The position numbers and the translations under genes were made by a program. A model generated the notes under the pieces. The model saw only the letters and a program-made list of their open reading frames with translations, was not told the DNA's origin and did not search any database. Below are positions 1,274 to 33,742 of a stretch of 64,000 nucleotides of DNA, in pieces. Within the stretch, counting starts at the first letter, position 1; each line of letters opens with the position of its first letter. The stretch is from NCBI GenBank assembly GCA_020351995.1, contig CP070674.1:1477307-1541306 (forward strand), read 5' to 3'. The stretch is from Candidatus Zixiibacteriota bacterium (lineage in GTDB: Bacteria; Zixibacteria; MSB-5A5; GN15; FEB-12).

Positions 1274-1546
1274 TCAGAGGAGAATCCTGATCGCAGCGTC
1301 GACTATCAAGACCTCCAGAAAACTTGGCTCAGCCTCGGCCCTCACCTGATTCTGAGCGTTATCCTCTTCACCCGGATTAATGACGTCTAGCGTGGAATCC
1401 TGCGGCGTCGGAGGCTTGGTAGGGGGTTCACCTGTCCCGCCATCACCGTAAACGCTCACCGGGGTCGAGATAAGACCGGTCATGCAGATAACCAGAACGG
1501 CAAGAGCATAGAGAACTACAGCTCTTGGGACTGACTTGCGAATCAT
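1274..1546 (-). CDS. Small secreted or membrane-anchored peptide, hypothetical
   Basis: Predicted peptide of 90 residues. I chose the ATG at 1546 because GGAGG stands about seven bases upstream and the hydrophobic leader begins there. Residues 1-35 form a basic-then-hydrophobic segment (AVVLYALAVLVICMTGL) typical of a signal peptide or single membrane anchor. The middle is rich in Pro, Gly and Thr (GGTGEPPTKPPTPQ) and acidic residues, and the C-terminus is hydrophobic (FLEVLIVDAAIRILL). I recognise no family. It lies 60 bp upstream of the WYL-type regulator gene on the same strand, so the two may be transcribed together. Confidence 0.5.
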   Translation of the reverse strand: MIRKSVPRAVVLYALAVLVICMTGLISTPVSVYGDGGTGEPPTKPPTPQDSTLDVINPGEEDNAQNQVRAEAEPSFLEVLIVDAAIRILL

Positions 1547-1811
1547 TTCTTTACCTCCATCATAGGTGCCAACAACATGCCCCGCGCAATAGGGCAACAA
1601 CCTTCGTGCCGGGGCGGGCCGCAAATCGTTGCGCCGGGTAAGCTATTGCCGTAAGGGAGCTTATCTGTCCTGTCGGGGATTAACTAAAAGGAAAAAATCT
1701 GCCGGAATTTGCAGGCTTTTTAGCCGTGCGAAACAAGTCCTCCATGGTACAAGGACTTAGACCGGTTACTTGCCTGCGTGAAATGGCAAGCCGGCAAAGT
1801 TTGGGGATAGT

Positions 1812-4800
1812 TTAAACCAGCCTGGAGATATTATATTTCTTTATTTTTCTGCGAAGGGTGCTCAGAGGTATGTCCAATTCGGCCGAGGCGCGGGACTGAT
1901 TCCAGCCATGTGCGGCCAGGGCCTTTCTTATCTTATCTTTTTCCAGCCGCTCGGCAACATTGTCCTTAAGCCCGGTTGAAGGTCGGCTGGAGCTGATCTC
2001 CTGTGGGAGTTGATGCAGCCCAATGGCTTCGCCAGGGTATATGATACAGCAACGCTCCACAAGATTCTTCAACTCCCTAACGTTGCCCGGCCAATAGTGA
2101 GCCCCCAGAGCTTCCAAGGCCTCGCTCGCGAAGCGAGGGGAGTTACCGGGCTGCGAAAAGAGGTTGAGAAAGTAGTCTGTCAGCAGCAGGATATCGTCCG
2201 GCCTTTCTCGCAGCGGAGGTATTTCAATGGTTACCGTATTAATCCGGTAATACAGATCAGGGCGGAAATTCCCCTTCTGCACCATTGCCAGCAGGTCTTT
2301 GTTGGTCGCGTAAACAAACCTGATATCGGTATACATGGTCTTGTTGCTGCCCACTCTTTCGAACTGCTGGTATTCGATGGCTCGCAAGACCTTACTCTGA
2401 ACCTCCATCGGCATGTCACCGATTTCGTCAAGAAGCAACGTTCCTCCGTCGGCAGCAGCGAACTTCCCTTCTCTCTCCTTTACATCCGTCGCGACATTGG
2501 CAGCGACACCGAAAAGTTCGCTCTCAATCAGGCTGCCTGCCACGGCGGCGCAGTTTAACTTGATCAGCGGCTTGTCTCTTCTTAGGCTCAGATTATGAAT
2601 CATCTCACAAAGGATTTCCTTACCGGTTCCGCTTTCCCCAACTACCAGAACCGGCGCGTTGGTGCGTGCTATCTCCGGAAGCTTATCAAAGAGTTCTCTC
2701 AAGGAAACATCATTGGTAATAAACGACTGCCTCCTGCCGGACCTGTTGACATCTTCTACCAGTTGGCGGTTGATCAGGGTTATATCCCGGTAGGAACGGA
2801 TGGTGGCGATCATCACCGCCAGGAGATTTGCGATGGAGGAAACGTAAATTACATCGTTTTTGTCGAAAAGGGCCGGTATGGTGTGATGATCAAGATATAG
2901 CACCCCCAGCACCCTGCCCTCGAGAGTGATCGGAATACAAATAACCGACAGAATATTGTGGGCCACGATACTTCTGTAATTCCTGGTACGCTTGTCTGTC
3001 AGGGCGTTATCGATAATCAGCGGGCTGGTTTTCCTGACCACATCCAGAGGAATCGAAGAGCTGAAATCAACGATATCATCAAGGCTGTCCTCATCACAGT
3101 TAATCATTGCCGCCATGTGAAGCCCGGCTTTGGGTTCACTTTTCAAAAGCAACACGCCGCGCTCGGCTCCAGTCTGATCCACGGCGAACTCCACCGCCCG
3201 GGTCAGCGACTTACCATAGTCCTTTATGTTCTTGAACACCTCGGATATGGCATAGATTGATTCGAGAAGGGCCGACTGGTCCCTATCGGGCAAATTCACT
3301 TCCTCCAGCTCACCCAGCAAATTCGCCGCCATTGACTCGTTTTGCATAGCGCGAGCCAGTTTGAGGGACTGGTCGTAAAATTTCCTGGCCAGTTTATGAC
3401 TGGAACTGGCGCCATAGCGCCGCGCCAGCGTACGACAGACAACACCGGCCCCAAAGCGGTTACCGCTCGACTCCAGAATCCGATACGCGGTCTTGAGAAA
3501 TCGCATCGTCAAACCATTGTCCTGCCCGCCGGCAGATCCACAATCAATCAATGCCGTCAAAGCTTTGAAAAACGGAGCCCGGGATTTGCGGGAGAGCTCA
3601 ATTAGCGAATCAAACCTGTCAACACTAACGGTCACTCCCTCGTCTATGCCCCTCAACAGCAAATGGAAAAGCCCCAGACCGGCGAAGTAGTAACTGTTAC
3701 AGCCAATCAATGACTCCACCACCGCGGGCAACTCCTGAACTGCCTCACTGCGGTTATCGTTGTACATGTCATTGAGAATGCCGATCAGTTCCAGTTCAAG
3801 ACGTGAGGTTTCATCACCATAAGATTTCAGGTGCTCTAAACCGGCCGTCTGATACTGCAAGCACCGTCGATGCTGCCCCTGGAACAAAGCCATCTCAGCC
3901 AGGTTGTGATACAGCTTTGTGACTGTCCGCAGCGAGGTGTCGGAATCCATCAGGTCCTGCGCCTTGGCAAGAGACTGTCCCGCCGAACGATAGTCGGCCC
4001 GGTTAATCTTGATGAAAGCGTCACTGATATAAAATATAACCATACGCTCATGGCTCGGCACGCACAGTTCAGGTGCGATATACTTCAGCAACCAGTATTC
4101 GGCTTTGTTGTGCTCTCCAAGCCGGGAGTAAGTATGCGATAGCGTAATCGAAATGTTCGCGACAATGCTTCGGTCCGACGGCTCTTCTATCTGCCTGATC
4201 GTTAGTTTTCCGTACTTTATGGCGGCGTTGTACAGAGCCATCTCGAAATTCAGCAGCGACAGACCAAGGATGGTGCTGACCGATTTGTGCAGCAGATTGT
4301 GCTTCCTGGCGATCTCATAACTTGTCTCAAGCTGCTCTCTTGCCTTGCCGAACTCTCCTCTCCTCCAGTCCACGATGCCCCCGGTGTAGCAAGCCTTGAC
4401 CTCCAGTTCATGAAGGTTTTCCGTCGCCGCCCGCTCGCGAACCGACTCAAGCAAATTTTCGGCCTTCTGATAATCACCCTGCGAACCTATCCGACCGGCT
4501 TCAATCCTGGTAAACATCAGTTCATAGTACACGTCATTTGCGGATCTGGCTTCCTCTAAACCTTTCTCGATAACTTTCCTGCTTAAACCAACATTGCCCA
4601 AGTCCAGTAGAACACAGATGTGATCATAGCGCGCCTCCAGGTCAAGCTGTGAGCGAGACTCGTTGATCGCGGCGAGCCGACCGAAGTAATCGGCGGCATC
4701 TTCGAGACGACCCAGGCCCCTTGCCAGCAACGCCAGTTCTCTGACCACTTGCGCACAAACATCGGACGGCACCGATTGGTCCGCCCCCAGCTTCTCCCAG

Positions 4801-6002
4801 ATAGTCTTGAGGTCTATGAACGCCCGAAGGTATTCACCGTTCTTTCTGAGTTGAAGGCTCCTTCGTAAAACTTCCCCGGCCAGAGCGCCCCCACTTAGGC
4901 TACCATAGCGTCCGCCAATATCCGGCCGTCCGAGTGCCTTATCGATCGCGTCCAGGGAACTCCTCAGGTCGTCATCGCGGAATTCAAAGCGCCAGTAATC
5001 TCCATAGCGCTTGAGGCCCGCTCCTTCAACCATGGCCTTGAACAGGGCGATGGCAGTCGTCCTGTCAAGTGCCCAGACCTCCGTAAGGCCACCGATAAGC
5101 TCCTCGTGAACCCCAAGAATCCTGTGGTCCTCGAAAATAATCTTCTTGAGCGACTTTTCCTCCCCGGATTTGACATTGCGGGTCCGGCGTAATCCGCCTA
5201 CCAGCTGGGAGGAAAAGAGTTCCAGAGTGGCTTTCCGATGTGCCGATTCACTGATAAGTTCCGCCTTCACCAGGGCGTCGAGCAGATTATACGGCCTGAG
5301 CAACGGATCATCCAGCGTCAACTGATGAGCCAGACCGGACAACTGTGCCACGATGGAACCAACGCCGCTATCGCCATTCACCTTCGAATCATGCACATAC
5401 TCAAGACAGCCCATGAGGGCAACACCGAGTGAATAGTTGTCGGACTGCGGCACAATCGTGTCGTTGGCGAGTATCTCGGGGGCGATGTGGCGCGGTGAAC
5501 CAAGAATCCTGGCTTTGGGGGAAGAACCTGTCTCGGTCAGGAAATCGAGATCAATCAGAACCAGCCTGGGTTCGCCGTCGGCCTGCCTGACAAGAAAGTT
5601 ACTCAACTTCAGATCGCAGTGAACCAATTCGTAAAGATGAACAAGGTCCACCAGGAGAAACATCTGCGTCAGGATGCTTTGAGGATATCTCCAGAAGACA
5701 TCTTCCGTCAACTCCTGCCACTCTTGCGGGTCGAGATGTTCATACTCAATGTACAACTTGTCACGACCCGGATACTTCCGTCTGGCAGTAATGATCCGGC
5801 TACTCTTAATGCGGCGTTGCAGATTGAAAGAATTCTGCAAAATGCCGCTCGCTACCACTTTGTCTACCGATGATTCGGGATTAACAATCTTGAGGAAACA
5901 TTCGGCGCCCACCAGACGGTCAACCGCCAACCACGATTGGCACAACTCATTTTGCGACAACAGATTTGTCAGCTCGTATCTTGATTCATCCGGCGCAGGC
6001 AT
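1812..6002 (-). CDS. Kinase-TPR-GAF-AAA+-Fis hybrid regulator lacking GAFTGA
   Basis: Multi-domain regulator of 1396 residues. The N-terminal protein-kinase-like domain has a catalytic loop HCDLKLSNF at about 127-135, a DFG equivalent LIDLDF and an APE motif (HIAPEIL) near 172; the glycine-rich ATP loop is degenerate. A long helical TPR-like region follows to about residue 900, then a GAF domain (about 915-1070). Next is an AAA+ domain with Walker A GESGTGKE (about 1121) and Walker B GGTLLLDEIGDM (about 1185), and a C-terminal Fis-type helix-turn-helix (NQSRASAELDIPLSTLRRKI). The family's sigma-54 contact loop GAFTGA should follow ESELFG, but the sequence there reads VAANVATDV. Sigma-54 activation is therefore doubtful, although ATPase and DNA-binding elements remain. 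It is probably a cytoplasmic signal integrator. Confidence 0.85.
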   Translation of the reverse strand: MPAPDESRYELTNLLSQNELCQSWLAVDRLVGAECFLKIVNPESSVDKVVASGILQNSFNLQRRIKSSRIITARRKYPGRDKLYIEYEHLDPQEWQELTEDVFWRYPQSILTQMFLLVDLVHLYELVHCDLKLSNFLVRQADGEPRLVLIDLDFLTETGSSPKARILGSPRHIAPEILANDTIVPQSDNYSLGVALMGCLEYVHDSKVNGDSGVGSIVAQLSGLAHQLTLDDPLLRPYNLLDALVKAELISESAHRKATLELFSSQLVGGLRRTRNVKSGEEKSLKKIIFEDHRILGVHEELIGGLTEVWALDRTTAIALFKAMVEGAGLKRYGDYWRFEFRDDDLRSSLDAIDKALGRPDIGGRYGSLSGGALAGEVLRRSLQLRKNGEYLRAFIDLKTIWEKLGADQSVPSDVCAQVVRELALLARGLGRLEDAADYFGRLAAINESRSQLDLEARYDHICVLLDLGNVGLSRKVIEKGLEEARSANDVYYELMFTRIEAGRIGSQGDYQKAENLLESVRERAATENLHELEVKACYTGGIVDWRRGEFGKAREQLETSYEIARKHNLLHKSVSTILGLSLLNFEMALYNAAIKYGKLTIRQIEEPSDRSIVANISITLSHTYSRLGEHNKAEYWLLKYIAPELCVPSHERMVIFYISDAFIKINRADYRSAGQSLAKAQDLMDSDTSLRTVTKLYHNLAEMALFQGQHRRCLQYQTAGLEHLKSYGDETSRLELELIGILNDMYNDNRSEAVQELPAVVESLIGCNSYYFAGLGLFHLLLRGIDEGVTVSVDRFDSLIELSRKSRAPFFKALTALIDCGSAGGQDNGLTMRFLKTAYRILESSGNRFGAGVVCRTLARRYGASSSHKLARKFYDQSLKLARAMQNESMAANLLGELEEVNLPDRDQSALLESIYAISEVFKNIKDYGKSLTRAVEFAVDQTGAERGVLLLKSEPKAGLHMAAMINCDEDSLDDIVDFSSSIPLDVVRKTSPLIIDNALTDKRTRNYRSIVAHNILSVICIPITLEGRVLGVLYLDHHTIPALFDKNDVIYVSSIANLLAVMIATIRSYRDITLINRQLVEDVNRSGRRQSFITNDVSLRELFDKLPEIARTNAPVLVVGESGTGKEILCEMIHNLSLRRDKPLIKLNCAAVAGSLIESELFGVAANVATDVKEREGKFAAADGGTLLLDEIGDMPMEVQSKVLRAIEYQQFERVGSNKTMYTDIRFVYATNKDLLAMVQKGNFRPDLYYRINTVTIEIPPLRERPDDILLLTDYFLNLFSQPGNSPRFASEALEALGAHYWPGNVRELKNLVERCCIIYPGEAIGLHQLPQEISSSRPSTGLKDNVAERLEKDKIRKALAAHGWNQSRASAELDIPLSTLRRKIKKYNISRLV

Positions 6003-7164: not shown

Positions 7165-7596
7165 ATGTTCAAGAAGACAATCAACATGATAACCGTGGCA
7201 GCCTTTCTCTTTTACACCTTCGCCGGCTCCGGCTGCACTCGCAAAACTGTCATAGTCCCCATCGACGAAATCAAGCGCGACACCTCGGGCCAGGTACTTA
7301 ACGCACGGAAAGCCGTCAAGGGGCAGATCCGGGGCGTCTACACCGCTAAGGGAGCCTACTTTTTCGATGAGCACTACGCCCGTATTGACTCGGCCACCAA
7401 CGCTGTCGTCGGCAGCACGGTGAATCAGGAACGGCTCAGCCTCCCGCTGACAACAGTCGACAGCCTCTCGGTCGCACGAACATCAGTAAACAAGACGACT
7501 CTCTCAATCATCGCCGTTTGTACGGTACTCGCAGTTGTCCTGGCACTTGCTGTCTCGCCCGTGGATTTGGACGACGCAGGTTGGTCCTTACCATAG
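7165..7596 (+). CDS. Lipoprotein array member 1 (single-module form)
   Basis: First of five tandem paralogues, 143 residues. A signal peptide ends in a lipobox (AGSGC, Cys at about 24), so it is predicted to be lipidated and membrane-anchored. The mature part holds one copy of a beta-like module (AVKGQIRGVY, then ARIDSATNAVVG, then SLPLTTVDSLSVAR). It ends in a hydrophobic segment (TLSIIAVCTVLAVVLALAV) that could span the membrane. AGGAGGG upstream supports the ATG. It is closest to the next gene; both have TRKTVIVPI and KRDTSGQVLN directly after the Cys. No function is known to me. Confidence 0.75.
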   Translation: MFKKTINMITVAAFLFYTFAGSGCTRKTVIVPIDEIKRDTSGQVLNARKAVKGQIRGVYTAKGAYFFDEHYARIDSATNAVVGSTVNQERLSLPLTTVDSLSVARTSVNKTTLSIIAVCTVLAVVLALAVSPVDLDDAGWSLP

Positions 7597-7642
7597 GAGC
7601 AAGAGAAAGATTATAGGCGAATGAACTAAAGGAGATATTACC

Positions 7643-8068
7643 GTGTTTAAACGAACCGTTTCCCTGATGACCCTGGCAGCTTTTCTCTTCTACTCCTTCG
7701 CTGTCTCTGGCTGCGCAACTCGCAAAACCGTTATAGTTCCCATCGGCGAAATCAAGCGGGACACCTCGGGCCAGGTATTGAACGGAGGCGGTGCCGTCAA
7801 GGGGCAGATCCGTCGCGTCTACACCTCCGAAGGCTCCTATTTCTTCAACCATTACGCGCGGATTGACGCGACCTCCAATGCGGTTATTGGTTATGCGGAA
7901 AACCAGGGAATGGTCAACGTGCCGCTGGAGATAACTGACAGTCTCTCTGTCGAACGAACCTATGCTTCCACAAAGAATATCTTGATCACTGTCGGTGTTT
8001 TCGCGGTCCTGGCCGTTACCCTGGCACTCACCGCGGAGTATATCCCCGTGAGTTTTCACCCCAAATAG
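7643..8068 (+). CDS. Lipoprotein array member 2 (single-module form)
   Basis: Second paralogue, 141 residues. It starts with GTG at 7643 behind AAAGGAGAT. The leader MFKRTVSLMTLAAFLFYSF and lipobox VSGC match its neighbours closely. One beta-like module follows (AVKGQIRRVYTSEGSYFF, then YARIDATSNAVIGY, then VPLEITDSLSVER), and a C-terminal hydrophobic segment. It lies 46 bp after member 1, and the repeated spacing suggests one operon. The near-identity to member 1 in the 40 residues after the Cys points to a fairly recent duplication. Confidence 0.75.
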   Translation: MFKRTVSLMTLAAFLFYSFAVSGCATRKTVIVPIGEIKRDTSGQVLNGGGAVKGQIRRVYTSEGSYFFNHYARIDATSNAVIGYAENQGMVNVPLEITDSLSVERTYASTKNILITVGVFAVLAVTLALTAEYIPVSFHPK

Positions 8069-8109
8069 GAGGATACGGGAAAGCCTAACAAAATTTAGGA
8101 GATATTGCC

Positions 8110-8751
8110 ATGTTAAGACAAACAACAAACCTGATAACCCTCGCCGCCTTTCTCTTTTACTCCTTCGCCTCGTCTGGTTGTACGAGTAGAGTCAGCGTTC
8201 CTGTCCGTGAGTTGAAGCTGGATCCACCTAAAAAAGTCACCCGTGTAAAACTCGAACAAGACAGCACCCTGGTCTGGAATTCCCAGGGCGCGGCATACAT
8301 CTACCAGGCGGAAATGTTCGAAGGCATTACCACCGATGGAGTTCGTCAGCACGTCCGGCTCGGCTCAATCGACTCAATCTACTACACCCTGGGAGACAGC
8401 CCGTCCGAGCAGTCACTGGATGCCGGCGCCTTCCATAAGGACGAGACTAACCGGCGCAAGGATCCCATAAGAGGTAAAATCGAGGGTTACTTTGCGGGGA
8501 TTGGGCTGACGAAATTTCAGAAAACCGGCTGGATTGACACTCTTAATCAGAGCATTGTCGGTATCATTGACACCGGCGACACCCTTCGTACACCGTTGAA
8601 CGAGGTTGCCAGCCTCAGTGTCAGGCGCGCCTCACCCACAAAGACACTCCTGTTAACAGCAGGGATAACCGTCGCCATTTTTGCTCTGTGGGCCGCCATT
8701 GCCATGTCACAGTTTGAGCTTAATTGGCGCAGCACCAGTATGGGGAATTAA
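8110..8751 (+). CDS. Lipoprotein array member 3 (two-module form)
   Basis: Third paralogue, 213 residues, with the same leader (LITLAAFLFYSFASSGC) and a lipobox Cys near 24. Unlike members 1 and 2 it carries two related modules. The first runs through VTRVKLEQDSTLVWNSQGA to LGSIDSIYYTLGD. The second runs through IRGKIEGYF and GWIDTLNQSIVGII to LNEVASLSVRR. A C-terminal hydrophobic segment (LLLTAGITVAIFALWAAI) follows. AGGAGAT precedes the ATG. It lies 41 bp after member 2. Function unknown; a periplasmic or outer-envelope role is inferred from lipidation. Confidence 0.75.
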   Translation: MLRQTTNLITLAAFLFYSFASSGCTSRVSVPVRELKLDPPKKVTRVKLEQDSTLVWNSQGAAYIYQAEMFEGITTDGVRQHVRLGSIDSIYYTLGDSPSEQSLDAGAFHKDETNRRKDPIRGKIEGYFAGIGLTKFQKTGWIDTLNQSIVGIIDTGDTLRTPLNEVASLSVRRASPTKTLLLTAGITVAIFALWAAIAMSQFELNWRSTSMGN

Positions 8752-8837
8752 TAATTTGTGACGCCAATAACTCCACAGTTAGTAATGGAACCCTGTTTAT
8801 CATGCGAAGACCTCGCAAAACCAATGGAGGTACTACC

Positions 8838-9479
8838 ATGTTCAGACAAATTATAAGTCTGGTCACGCTGGCAGCTTTTCTTTTCAACTCCGTGGTCATA
8901 TCGGGATGCACCAGGATCGTCAAGATACCTGCCGGCACAATAAACCAGGAGCAACCGGGAAAGATCACCCGGCTGAAATTTCTCGACGGCGGCAACCTCG
9001 TTTGGAACACCGACGGAGCCAGGTATCACTATCGGGAAAAGCTGTTCGACGGAGTAACCAGCGATGGTGAGCCGCACCAGGTACGGCTGGTCTCGGTCGA
9101 TACGGTTTACGTCACAGTGAAGAATGACACCGTCGAACACGCGACAGACCCCGAAGCCTTTCATGAAAAGGAAGTTAAAAGATGGCGCAATACCATCAAG
9201 GGCAGGATTCACGGCTTTACAAACGAGGAGGGCAAGGTTACATTTTATAAGAGCACGGGGTGGATAGACACGACCGGCCAATTCATTGTCGGCGGCATCA
9301 CCGAATCCGGCGATACCCTTCAGACACCTCTCAGCGAGATCGACACCCTTGAAGTCAAACGGTCCGCCCCTGATAAGACATTTTTAGCGGTTCTCGGACT
9401 CGGTGCCCTCGCTTTCCTGATTACCGCGATTATCGCTGGCGCAACGATGACCGGCTTTGGCTCGGGCACCAGTTATTAG
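8838..9479 (+). CDS. Lipoprotein array member 4 (two-module form)
   Basis: Fourth paralogue, 213 residues. I chose the ATG at 8838, with GGAGG at 8826-8830, because the signal peptide (MFRQIISLVTLAAFLFNSV) and lipobox ISGC begin there. The frame stays open further upstream, but those residues do not look like a leader. It has two modules (ITRLKFLDGGNLVWNTDGAR, then VRLVSVDTVYVTV; IKGRIHGFT, then GWIDTTGQFIVGGI, then LSEIDTLEVKRS) and a C-terminal hydrophobic segment (FLAVLGLGALAFLITAII). It aligns along its whole length with members 3 and 5. Confidence 0.75.
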   Translation: MFRQIISLVTLAAFLFNSVVISGCTRIVKIPAGTINQEQPGKITRLKFLDGGNLVWNTDGARYHYREKLFDGVTSDGEPHQVRLVSVDTVYVTVKNDTVEHATDPEAFHEKEVKRWRNTIKGRIHGFTNEEGKVTFYKSTGWIDTTGQFIVGGITESGDTLQTPLSEIDTLEVKRSAPDKTFLAVLGLGALAFLITAIIAGATMTGFGSGTSY

Positions 9480-29422: not shown

Positions 29423-31379
<1,957 letters not shown>

Positions 31380-31412
31380 GACCTTTTCTTTGTACACATA
31401 TATACCAGGAAG

Positions 31413-31437
31413 AACCCGGCCACAGGCCGGGTTTTTC
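31413..31437 (+). terminator. Intrinsic terminator of the groESL operon
   Basis: AACCCGGCC (31413-31421), loop ACA, GGCCGGGTT (31425-31433), with the T-run continuing to 31436. It lies 33 bp after the groEL stop. Confidence 0.95.
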
Positions 31438-31471
31438 TATGGGTATCATTCTCGATACCACCGTCAATTCG

Positions 31472-31500
31472 TTGACAACCCATATCGCTTTTGCTATAGT
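31472..31500 (+). promoter_or_regulatory. Promoter of the TPR-AAA+ regulator gene
   Basis: Perfect TTGACA at 31472-31477, 17-bp spacer, TATAGT at 31495-31500. The regulator ATG is at 31574. Confidence 0.75.
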
Positions 31501-31573
31501 TTTTACTTACGGGCTGAACCGGGGTGTACCTCACCCCGGCTTCTCGCCGCAGCGCTTTTAACTGAGGCAATCC

Positions 31574-33742
31574 ATGAACAGATTGGCAGAGGCTGAAAAA
31601 CTGCTCGGCATGAAGAAAAGTGCCGAGGCGTTGCAGGTTCTCCGGGCTATCGACACTTCACAGCTAAACACGAGAGACAGGAGCGTTCACGATATCCTCC
31701 TTGCTGAAGCCGGGATGTTGCTGAACGACTATTCTCTTGTTTCCGGGCTCGATTCAGCCATCGAGACCTTTCGCTTTGATGCTGATACCGCCAAGTTCGC
31801 CAGGGCCAAGTACCTTCAGGGATGGCTGCTGCTGGTTCATGGTAAATACGCACAGGCTCAGGAGGTGCTTCTGGAGGCTCACTCCAATTACCTGCGCTGT
31901 CAGGAATTGGAGGGCGCCGCCCGAGCATTAAATCGTAGAGCGCAGGTTAGTCTGCGTCTTGGCGATAGCGACGACGCGGTGGAACTGCTCCTGAGGAGTC
32001 GTGACATCTATCAGAGGCTCGGGAATCATCTGCAGCATGCCAACGTGTCAGCGAATCTGGCCTATCTCTACTGCCTCACCGGGCGACTGAAAGATTCCCA
32101 GACGGAATACGGTTACAAGGAGTGTATCCTGCGGGAATATAGTCCGCGTTCCAAAATGAGTTACTGGCTCGGCATTTCTCTCGTTCACGCGCTCAAGGGT
32201 GATACTTCTACGGCCAGGGCACAACTCGACCAGTGTATCCCCCATCTTGACAAATACGCCTATGAAAAAGCTCTTTACCACGAATTTTCGGGATGGATTT
32301 CGTGTCTGGAAAATGACCTCGCAGCCGGTGAGGCGTCCTTATCCGAAAGCATTAGGCTCCACCGCGCTCCGGGTATTCCTATCGGGTCCGATAGTGTGAG
32401 ACCAGAGCGATTATTGGCCCAAATCTATGCCGACAACGGTCGGTGGCGATTGGCGCAGAAGCATGGCGAACAGGTTTTTCAGTTGGCGTCGGCCTCCAAC
32501 GACCGTGCGGAGATAGCCGGCTGCTACCGAATTTTTGCCCAGATAGACTACCATAAAAATAAACCTGACTCTGCCCGCACATGGTATGACCGGGCTCTTG
32601 ATCTATATAGCCTGATCAAATACCGGTATGAGCTGGCAGTAACGCAGTTTCTCGCCGCCCAAACCAACCTTTACACCGAACCCGAGTGCGCGGTGATGTT
32701 GGCACGGTCGCGAGATTACTTTGCCTCGGAAGATATCCCATCTTACAAAAAGCGCGTCGATGAGGAGATCCGCAGACTGCGAAGAACTTCAGCCGTAACA
32801 GCAACGCCGCACACCGACCCCATCGATGCCGGAGGTCGCTCCATAGAGTGTCCCGATATCATTACAAGATCTTCCAAGGTAACAGCCTTGCTTACCCTGG
32901 CCCGAAGGGTTGCGCCGAGTGAGATGAATGTTCTCGTGACCGGAGAGACCGGGACTGGCAAGGACTTGATGGCAAAGTACATTCATTATCACAGCCGGCG
33001 AGCAGGCCGCTTCATTTCGGTCAACGCAGCCGCGGTCCCCGATTCGATGGTCGAATCGGAGTTGTTTGGATACGTAAAGGGGGCTTTCACGGGAGCCGAC
33101 CGGGACAAGCCGGGATTATTCGAAGCCGCCGATGGCGGTACATTTTTTCTCGACGAGATTGCCGATGCCTCCAGTGCCTTTCAGGCAAAGCTTCTCGAGG
33201 TTATCGAAAGTCGTTGCATCCGGCGCCTCGGCGATACCTCCGTGCGACCGGCTAACTTCAAACTCATCGCCGCCACCAATCAGGTTCTGGATTCCCATAT
33301 TCAACAGAACCGGTTCAGGGCCGATCTTTATCATCGGTTGAACGAATTTCTAATTCACCTGCCTCCACTTCGTGAGCGTCAGGAGGACTTTCTCCCGTTA
33401 ACAGAGTATTTCCTGCGAACCTCCGGCCTTGATTCTCGCACTAACGGTAACCGCCGGCACATTGAAAATCTCAGTGATACCCTTTCCAGGCGCAACTGGC
33501 CCGGAAACATCCGCCAACTCCGCGCTGAAATCAACTACCTGGTGCTGGTGTCAGATCGCAATGTCAGGCGGATGGTAAAGGAGGCGGAGAAATTCGACCG
33601 CCACGCCGAGGATTACCGCAAGCTCACCAAAGCCATCGAAGACGCTGGAGGAAACCAGAGTCTGGCGGCCCGCAGATTGGGAATACCTGAAAGCACATTG
33701 CGGTATCGACTGGCAAAATACCGAAAAAAATCAAAAAAATGA
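31574..33742 (+). CDS. TPR-containing sigma-54-dependent transcriptional regulator
   Basis: Predicted bacterial enhancer-binding protein of 722 residues. About 390 N-terminal residues form TPR-like helical repeats (NLAYLYCLTGRLKDSQTEYG; AQIYADNGRWRLAQKHGEQV) in place of the usual receiver domain. The AAA+ domain starts near residue 425, with Walker A TGETGTGKD (about 456), an intact sigma-54 contact loop GAFTGA (about 502), Walker B GGTFFLDEIAD, and the arginine-finger region FRADLYHRLNEF. A Fis-type helix-turn-helix ends the protein (NQSLAARRLGIPESTLRYRL). It should open sigma-54 promoters in response to a protein or ligand bound by the TPR part. Its own promoter is of housekeeping type. Confidence 0.9.
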   Translation: MNRLAEAEKLLGMKKSAEALQVLRAIDTSQLNTRDRSVHDILLAEAGMLLNDYSLVSGLDSAIETFRFDADTAKFARAKYLQGWLLLVHGKYAQAQEVLLEAHSNYLRCQELEGAARALNRRAQVSLRLGDSDDAVELLLRSRDIYQRLGNHLQHANVSANLAYLYCLTGRLKDSQTEYGYKECILREYSPRSKMSYWLGISLVHALKGDTSTARAQLDQCIPHLDKYAYEKALYHEFSGWISCLENDLAAGEASLSESIRLHRAPGIPIGSDSVRPERLLAQIYADNGRWRLAQKHGEQVFQLASASNDRAEIAGCYRIFAQIDYHKNKPDSARTWYDRALDLYSLIKYRYELAVTQFLAAQTNLYTEPECAVMLARSRDYFASEDIPSYKKRVDEEIRRLRRTSAVTATPHTDPIDAGGRSIECPDIITRSSKVTALLTLARRVAPSEMNVLVTGETGTGKDLMAKYIHYHSRRAGRFISVNAAAVPDSMVESELFGYVKGAFTGADRDKPGLFEAADGGTFFLDEIADASSAFQAKLLEVIESRCIRRLGDTSVRPANFKLIAATNQVLDSHIQQNRFRADLYHRLNEFLIHLPPLRERQEDFLPLTEYFLRTSGLDSRTNGNRRHIENLSDTLSRRNWPGNIRQLRAEINYLVLVSDRNVRRMVKEAEKFDRHAEDYRKLTKAIEDAGGNQSLAARRLGIPESTLRYRLAKYRKKSKK

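Follow-up and report, generated by a model that had tools for sequence, protein, structure and literature searches.

In a 64,000-nucleotide stretch (here, the window) of the single-contig, 3.6-Mb genome of a "Candidatus Zixiibacteriota" bacterium (GenBank assembly GCA_020351995.1, contig CP070674.1, positions 1,477,307 to 1,541,306), we found a gene for a large regulator of transcription next to a short gap and two smaller genes (Table 1). In the regulator, a protein kinase domain, TPR repeats, a GAF domain, an AAA+ domain of the sigma-54 activator type, and a Fis-type DNA-binding domain follow one another. This order had been proposed in an earlier, sequence-only reading and is borne out by the Pfam matches, which also place an AAA lid at amino acids (aa) 1265-1343; the TPR region is probably longer than its Pfam-matched part (aa 421-638). 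The AAA+ domain carries NVATDV where activators of sigma-54 carry GAFTGA, and the sequence-only reading had taken the sigma-54 contact loop to be lost. Our analysis instead reveals a conserved alternative loop, next to a conserved promoter element of the sigma-54 type.

Table 1. Regulator gene and adjoining cassette (positions in the window; domain and loop limits in aa)
Feature	Position	Strand	Basis
Kinase-TPR-GAF-AAA+-Fis regulator, 1396 aa	1812..6002	-	Open reading frame (ORF) and Pfam
Protein kinase domain, aa 36-201	5400..5897	-	Pfam PF00069 (Pkinase), E 5e-15; family alignment
TPR repeats, aa 421-638	4089..4742	-	Pfam TPR_12, TPR_2, weak TPR_MalT
GAF domain, aa 933-1065	2808..3206	-	Pfam GAF_2, E 6e-12
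AAA+ domain of sigma-54 activator type (Sigma54_activat), aa 1095-1260	2223..2720	-	Pfam PF00158, E 3e-56
L1 loop NVATDV instead of GAFTGA, aa 1169-1174	2481..2498	-	Family consensus [NGK][VA]ATGV
Fis-type DNA-binding domain (HTH_8, PF02954), aa 1351-1390	1833..1952	-	Pfam, E 3e-13
Tandem TTGCCG-N2-TTGCCA, putative upstream activating sequence	1784..1797	-	Position conserved across cassettes
25-bp palindrome TAAGCT-N13-AGCTTA, operator-like, just upstream of promoter	1639..1663	-	Conserved TAA..TTG..CAA..TTA block
Sigma-54-type -24/-12 element GGCACGAAGGTTG	1598..1610	-	GGCAY-N5-TTG conserved in cassette gaps
Predicted small exported protein, 90 aa: signal-peptide-like N terminus, Pro-rich linker, acidic-then-hydrophobic tail	1274..1546	-	Same design across cassettes examined
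Regulator with HTH_11 and degenerate WYL-like part, 207 aa	591..1214	-	Adjacent gene in 32 of 37 neighborhoods

The L1 loop of the regulator and its homologs

The AlphaFold2 model of the AAA+ domain has a pLDDT of 90 and is matched by Foldseek to FleQ, ZraR, NtrC1, and PspF. Walker A (GESGTGKE), Walker B (LLLDEIG), and the arginine finger region (FRPDLYYRIN) are all intact, and the catalytic AAA+ residues are invariant or nearly so in the family alignment (36 Zixibacteria homologs). The residues after ESELFG are VAANVATDVKEREGKF, in the context ESELFG-VAANVATDV-KEREGKF; both the loop and the preserved motifs had been described correctly in the sequence-only reading. When NVATDV is aligned to the GAFTGA of canonical domains, Phe is replaced by Ala, Thr is kept, and the loop is shorter by one residue at its end. 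A GAFTGA elsewhere in the AAA+ domain or an intact loop in close homologs, either of which had been named as pointing to a local loss or artifact, was not found in the domain or in the family alignment.

Homologs of the same architecture (30-52% identity) exist in about one-third of 132 Zixibacteria genomes, and their distribution is patchy even inside one genus. In the 36 aligned homologs, the Phe position is occupied by Ala (31), Val (4), or Phe (1). The loop Thr is conserved in 35 of 36, the next position is mostly G (27), with D in 5 homologs, and the final V is present in 35 of 37. The single cassette homolog with a loop Phe (L195 in genome G076) reads KAFTDV, and its promoter has TTGC at -12. 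The loop is thus conserved among homologs with the same domain order, as the sequence-only reading had suggested checking, but the consensus is [NGK][VA]ATGV, so that the VATDV form of the window belongs to a minority. By this alignment, the loop has not been lost; the NVATDV type is a family trait, a conserved replacement of GAFTGA. The Asp of the window copy, where most homologs have Gly, might hint at local degeneration or a sequencing artifact of a former GAFTGA activator; this explanation is extremely improbable and is refuted by the homologs, since a close relative (G002) also has VATDV and since the same loop in 36 homologs and more than 110 further loci (see below) excludes chance and sequencing error.

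The kinase domain has the VAIK Lys, HRD Asp, and DFG Asp by which Hanks-type protein kinases are recognized. In the family alignment, K38 (32 of 32), D130 (32 of 32), and D151 (31 of 31) are conserved, and H128 and N135 are likewise invariant or nearly so. The glycine-rich loop, which had been called degenerate, is in fact absent family-wide, with SxN..QSW in its place.

About 20 other such AAA+ domains exist in the genome, and nearly all of them have GAFTGA, GSFTGA, or GAFTDA. Reading these domains confirmed that the gene at 31574 keeps GAFTGA. In the window at 29736-33742, groEL is directly followed by a gene for a TPR-AAA+-Fis regulator with an intact GAFTGA. A second regulator without GAFTGA (L020, G000:C1:1411339-1411839), a 471-aa NtrC-like protein, reads GSEVSS, which is a loop alteration of another kind than NVATDV.

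GVATGV loops in other phyla and the presence of sigma-54

By the pattern FGxxxx[VA]AT[GD]V with a one-residue deletion, the regulator belongs to a GVATGV class that includes DVUA0100 of Desulfovibrio (Nitratidesulfovibrio) vulgaris. Bacterial genomes scanned for FGxxxxVATGV yielded at least 114 stretches; among the matches listed are those of Acidobacteriota, Myxococcota, Desulfovibrio and relatives, Gemmatimonadota, Nitrospinota, Nitrospirota, Dadabacteria, Eisenbacteria, WOR-3, and Zixibacteria. The VATGV proteins are mostly 400-600 aa long and end in a Fis domain, and their input domains are GAF (about 20 of 48), FHA (8), and receiver (4) domains. An Eisenbacteria ORF of 1716 aa (L078) appears to join kinase, TPR, GAF, AAA+ (NVATGV), and Fis parts, but, unlike the window regulator, it has an intact glycine loop and an extra NTPase-like stretch. 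The loop contains all the alignment columns by which the VATGV set can be told from 47 GAFTGA proteins; the rest of the domain has none. With the loop masked, a tree constrained to a single VATGV clade outscored the free search (p-AU 0.70 in the approximately unbiased [AU] test); a single origin of the VATGV loop is compatible with the test and not rejected. The non-monophyly seen in quick trees was not upheld by the AU test and was dropped.

A search for rpoN, proposed in the sequence-only reading as a check, identified an intact RpoN of 474 aa with region I and the RpoN box ARRTVTKYRE. The gene is also present in 60 of 60 good-quality relatives and in 46 of 50 genomes carrying GVATGV genes. 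Beside GVATGV genes in other phyla, the strict form TGGCAY-N5-TTGCW occurs 4 times (0.12 expected) and a looser -24/-12 form 8 times (0.43 expected). For DVUA0100, the GVATGV loop has been noted and a sigma-54 regulon predicted (PMC4641369). In the DP4 plasmid copy, GVATGV could be read directly; our motif scan of the divergent gap at the N. vulgaris secretion operon for a canonical -24/-12 element gave weaker matches only, and the published prediction is therefore not independently confirmed.

The cassette and its promoter

A gene encoding a helix-turn-helix (HTH) protein of about 204 aa accompanies the regulator in 32 of the 37 neighborhoods. The order is activator, a gap of about 260 nt, a small peptide gene, and the WYL-type regulator gene, and no general conservation extends past these three genes in the neighborhoods compared. 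The small ORF (around 85 aa, with a range of about 75-105 aa) has a strong ribosome-binding site (1554-1558 in the window) and a signal-peptide-like start ending near LADGG in the cassettes examined. A Pro-rich linker comes next, and the C-terminal tail is hydrophobic behind a leading acidic residue; export was judged by eye from these features. The AlphaFold2 model of the 207-aa HTH protein (pLDDT 91) is matched by Foldseek best to DriD (E 3e-7) and then to PafBC, CapW, and BrxR, with low TM scores (0.28), so that its domain arrangement differs from those of the WYL matches, while a sequence search against the PDB gave nothing useful. The model thus suggests an HTH plus WYL-fold regulator with a degenerate WYL signature, which resembles DriD, PafBC, CapW, and BrxR in these two parts but is short for a WYL regulator.

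In the gap, GGCAY-N5-TTG is present in 16 of 31 cassettes (0.28 in shuffles), with a spacer of exactly 5. No other GG..TTG spacer occurs more than twice in the 31 gaps, and the element is found 0 times on the opposite strand and upstream of 0 of 37 activator genes. A GG and a TTG so spaced make up the -24/-12 signature of sigma-54 promoters. The canonical TGGCAC-N5-TTGC is almost absent from the cassette gap, as the conserved element has A/T for the -12 C. Across cassettes, the layout is fixed, with TTRCCR repeats (about 187, 179, and 168 nt upstream), CGGCAA (at about -104 and again at about -93), the palindrome TAA..TTG..CAA..TTA (at about -53), and then GGCAY-N5-TTG; the tandem repeats of the window precede the -24 GG by 187 and 179 nt. 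The sequence TTRCCRNNTTRCCR occurs seven times genome-wide, and the cassette copy is the only intergenic one, thereby suggesting that the regulator has a dedicated local target.

The A/T after TTG is also seen beside the GAFTGA genes L001 (about 2533) and L007 (about 2532) and before hsp20-dnaK, and we therefore rejected the idea that the altered -12 element co-evolved with the altered loop. In the clade, the -12 C is retained at some sites that precede flagellar-like genes. In the chaperone locus (L224, G000:C1:681093), TGGCACGAGGTTTGT lies 80 nt upstream of hsp20, with dnaK downstream, and forms a sigma-54-type promoter; TTACCG/TTGCCA-like and TAACTCCTT-like sequences are found upstream of it. 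This resemblance did not establish hsp20-dnaK as a regulon member. In the whole genome, TGGCAC-N5-TTG was counted 40 times on the forward and 8 times on the reverse strand, while the reversed control gave 24 and 18.

Possible mode of action and relation to known regulators

Alongside the established domain order, loop, cassette, conserved -24/-12 element and upstream repeats, and rpoN, the explanation that we somewhat favor is that the regulator, as an ATPase of the enhancer-binding type, continues to work with sigma-54 by way of a non-aromatic L1 loop and drives the local peptide/WYL operon. A cytoplasmic AAA+ ring would engage sigma-54 RNA polymerase through [G/N]-[V/A]-A-T-[G/D]-V, which is shorter by one residue and non-aromatic, and the kinase, TPR, and GAF parts would gate the ATPase. 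The Fis domain would bind the TTRCCR repeats, which stand just downstream of the regulator's own gene. We infer that this ring, rather than another activator, opens the promoter at 1598-1610, giving expression of the small exported peptide and the WYL-type regulator, and the latter may act on the 25-bp palindrome.

Several points weigh against this explanation. (i) Enhancer-binding proteins whose GAFTGA is broken have been classed as sigma-70 regulators. (ii) We found no biochemical data in the literature on any GVATGV protein. (iii) One of the approximately 20 GAFTGA proteins in the cell could open the cassette promoter, and this promoter lacks the -12 C, although the A/T variant is clade-wide. 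(iv) No sigma-54 domain was found in 4 of the 50 genomes with GVATGV genes (metagenome-assembled and possibly incomplete), and the co-occurrence of rpoN says little, since the gene is to be expected in these phyla in any case. (v) According to reviews, none of the activators tested can dispense with the Phe (PMC3162934), and one recent survey of activators applied a hard GAFTGA filter.

The sequence-only reading had proposed an ATPase acting without sigma-54 or a repressor-like protein. The AAA+ ring would then control a sigma-70-type promoter from its place on DNA or block another activator, like TyrR, HupR, and VpsR. The missing aromatic residue fits this proposal, as changes of this kind abolish sigma-54 activation according to the rule in the literature, and so do the four metagenome-assembled genomes mentioned above. 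We nevertheless regard it as unlikely, because the loop is a conserved substitute, neither decayed nor deleted, because RpoN is intact, and because the neighboring operon has a conserved sigma-54-type -24/-12 element with upstream repeats; GVATGV genes elsewhere adjoin such sites as well. TyrR, HupR, DhaR, and VpsR share with our regulator an NtrC-type AAA+ domain without a functional GAFTGA, whereas their loops are deleted or broken; the loop described here is neither deleted nor unconstrained in the manner of TyrR and HupR, and a sigma-54-type promoter is adjacent.

A mixed ring, comparable to the HrpR/HrpS hetero-hexamers, would reconcile a sigma-54 promoter with the absent aromatic residue, in that the VATGV subunit would supply DNA binding, ATPase activity, and signal input while a GAFTGA partner, for which the cell offers about 20 candidates, contacts sigma-54. 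We give this arrangement little credence, as no GAFTGA gene is conserved beside the cassette and no GAFTGA partner accompanies a DVUA0100-like gene within the annotated stretch that we read.

With respect to canonical enhancer-binding proteins (NtrC, PspF, FleQ, and ZraR), the regulator is alike in its AAA+ fold, Walker A and B motifs, arginine finger region, and Fis domain. As for the target promoter, a -24/-12 element and upstream sites are recognized here by sequence conservation, and the regulator presumably acts there. It differs in its kinase-TPR-GAF input and in having [GN][VA]AT[GD]V, shorter by one residue and without an aromatic residue, for GAFTGA. Strict membership among canonical activators therefore fails on GAFTGA, while the working resemblance holds. 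DVUA0100 shares the GVATGV loop and a predicted sigma-54-dependent regulon (PMC4641369) but has no kinase, TPR, or GAF part and controls a secretion locus instead of a peptide/WYL cassette.

In the literature, GAFTGA, above all its Phe/Tyr, is taken to be invariant, and sigma-54 activators are selected by it (PMC12316311, PMC3162934). This rule is probably too narrow, because the alternative loop is conserved across phyla and the regulator adjoins a conserved sigma-54-type promoter. If the VATGV class is sigma-54 competent, sigma-54 networks as now drawn lack a conserved set of regulators found in many phyla, and the role proposed for the aromatic residue in DNA opening at -12 needs rethinking. 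The class also offers natural loop variants for probing how activators remodel sigma-54.

The cassette may represent a defined, probably single-target regulon and possibly a peptide signaling system in a largely uncultured phylum. As in RRNPP quorum-sensing pairs, the gene for a TPR regulator is directly followed by one for a small, here predicted, exported peptide. RRNPP receptors, however, are defined by a size of 250-500 aa (PMC10075063), as opposed to 1396 aa here, and the present system has an AAA+/Fis output and a Gram-negative host. A self-contained Zixibacteria cassette, in which the non-aromatic-loop activator would drive an exported peptide that feeds back on the TPR region, with the WYL protein as a brake, is an improbable scheme, and its peptide feedback via the TPRs is speculative; if true, it would mean that an entire activator class can do without the aromatic residue of GAFTGA.

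Elsewhere in the window (7165-9479), successive lipoprotein-like paralogs have near-identical N termini (LITLAAFLFYSFA..SGC), and relatives of these genes adjoin the cassette in G002.

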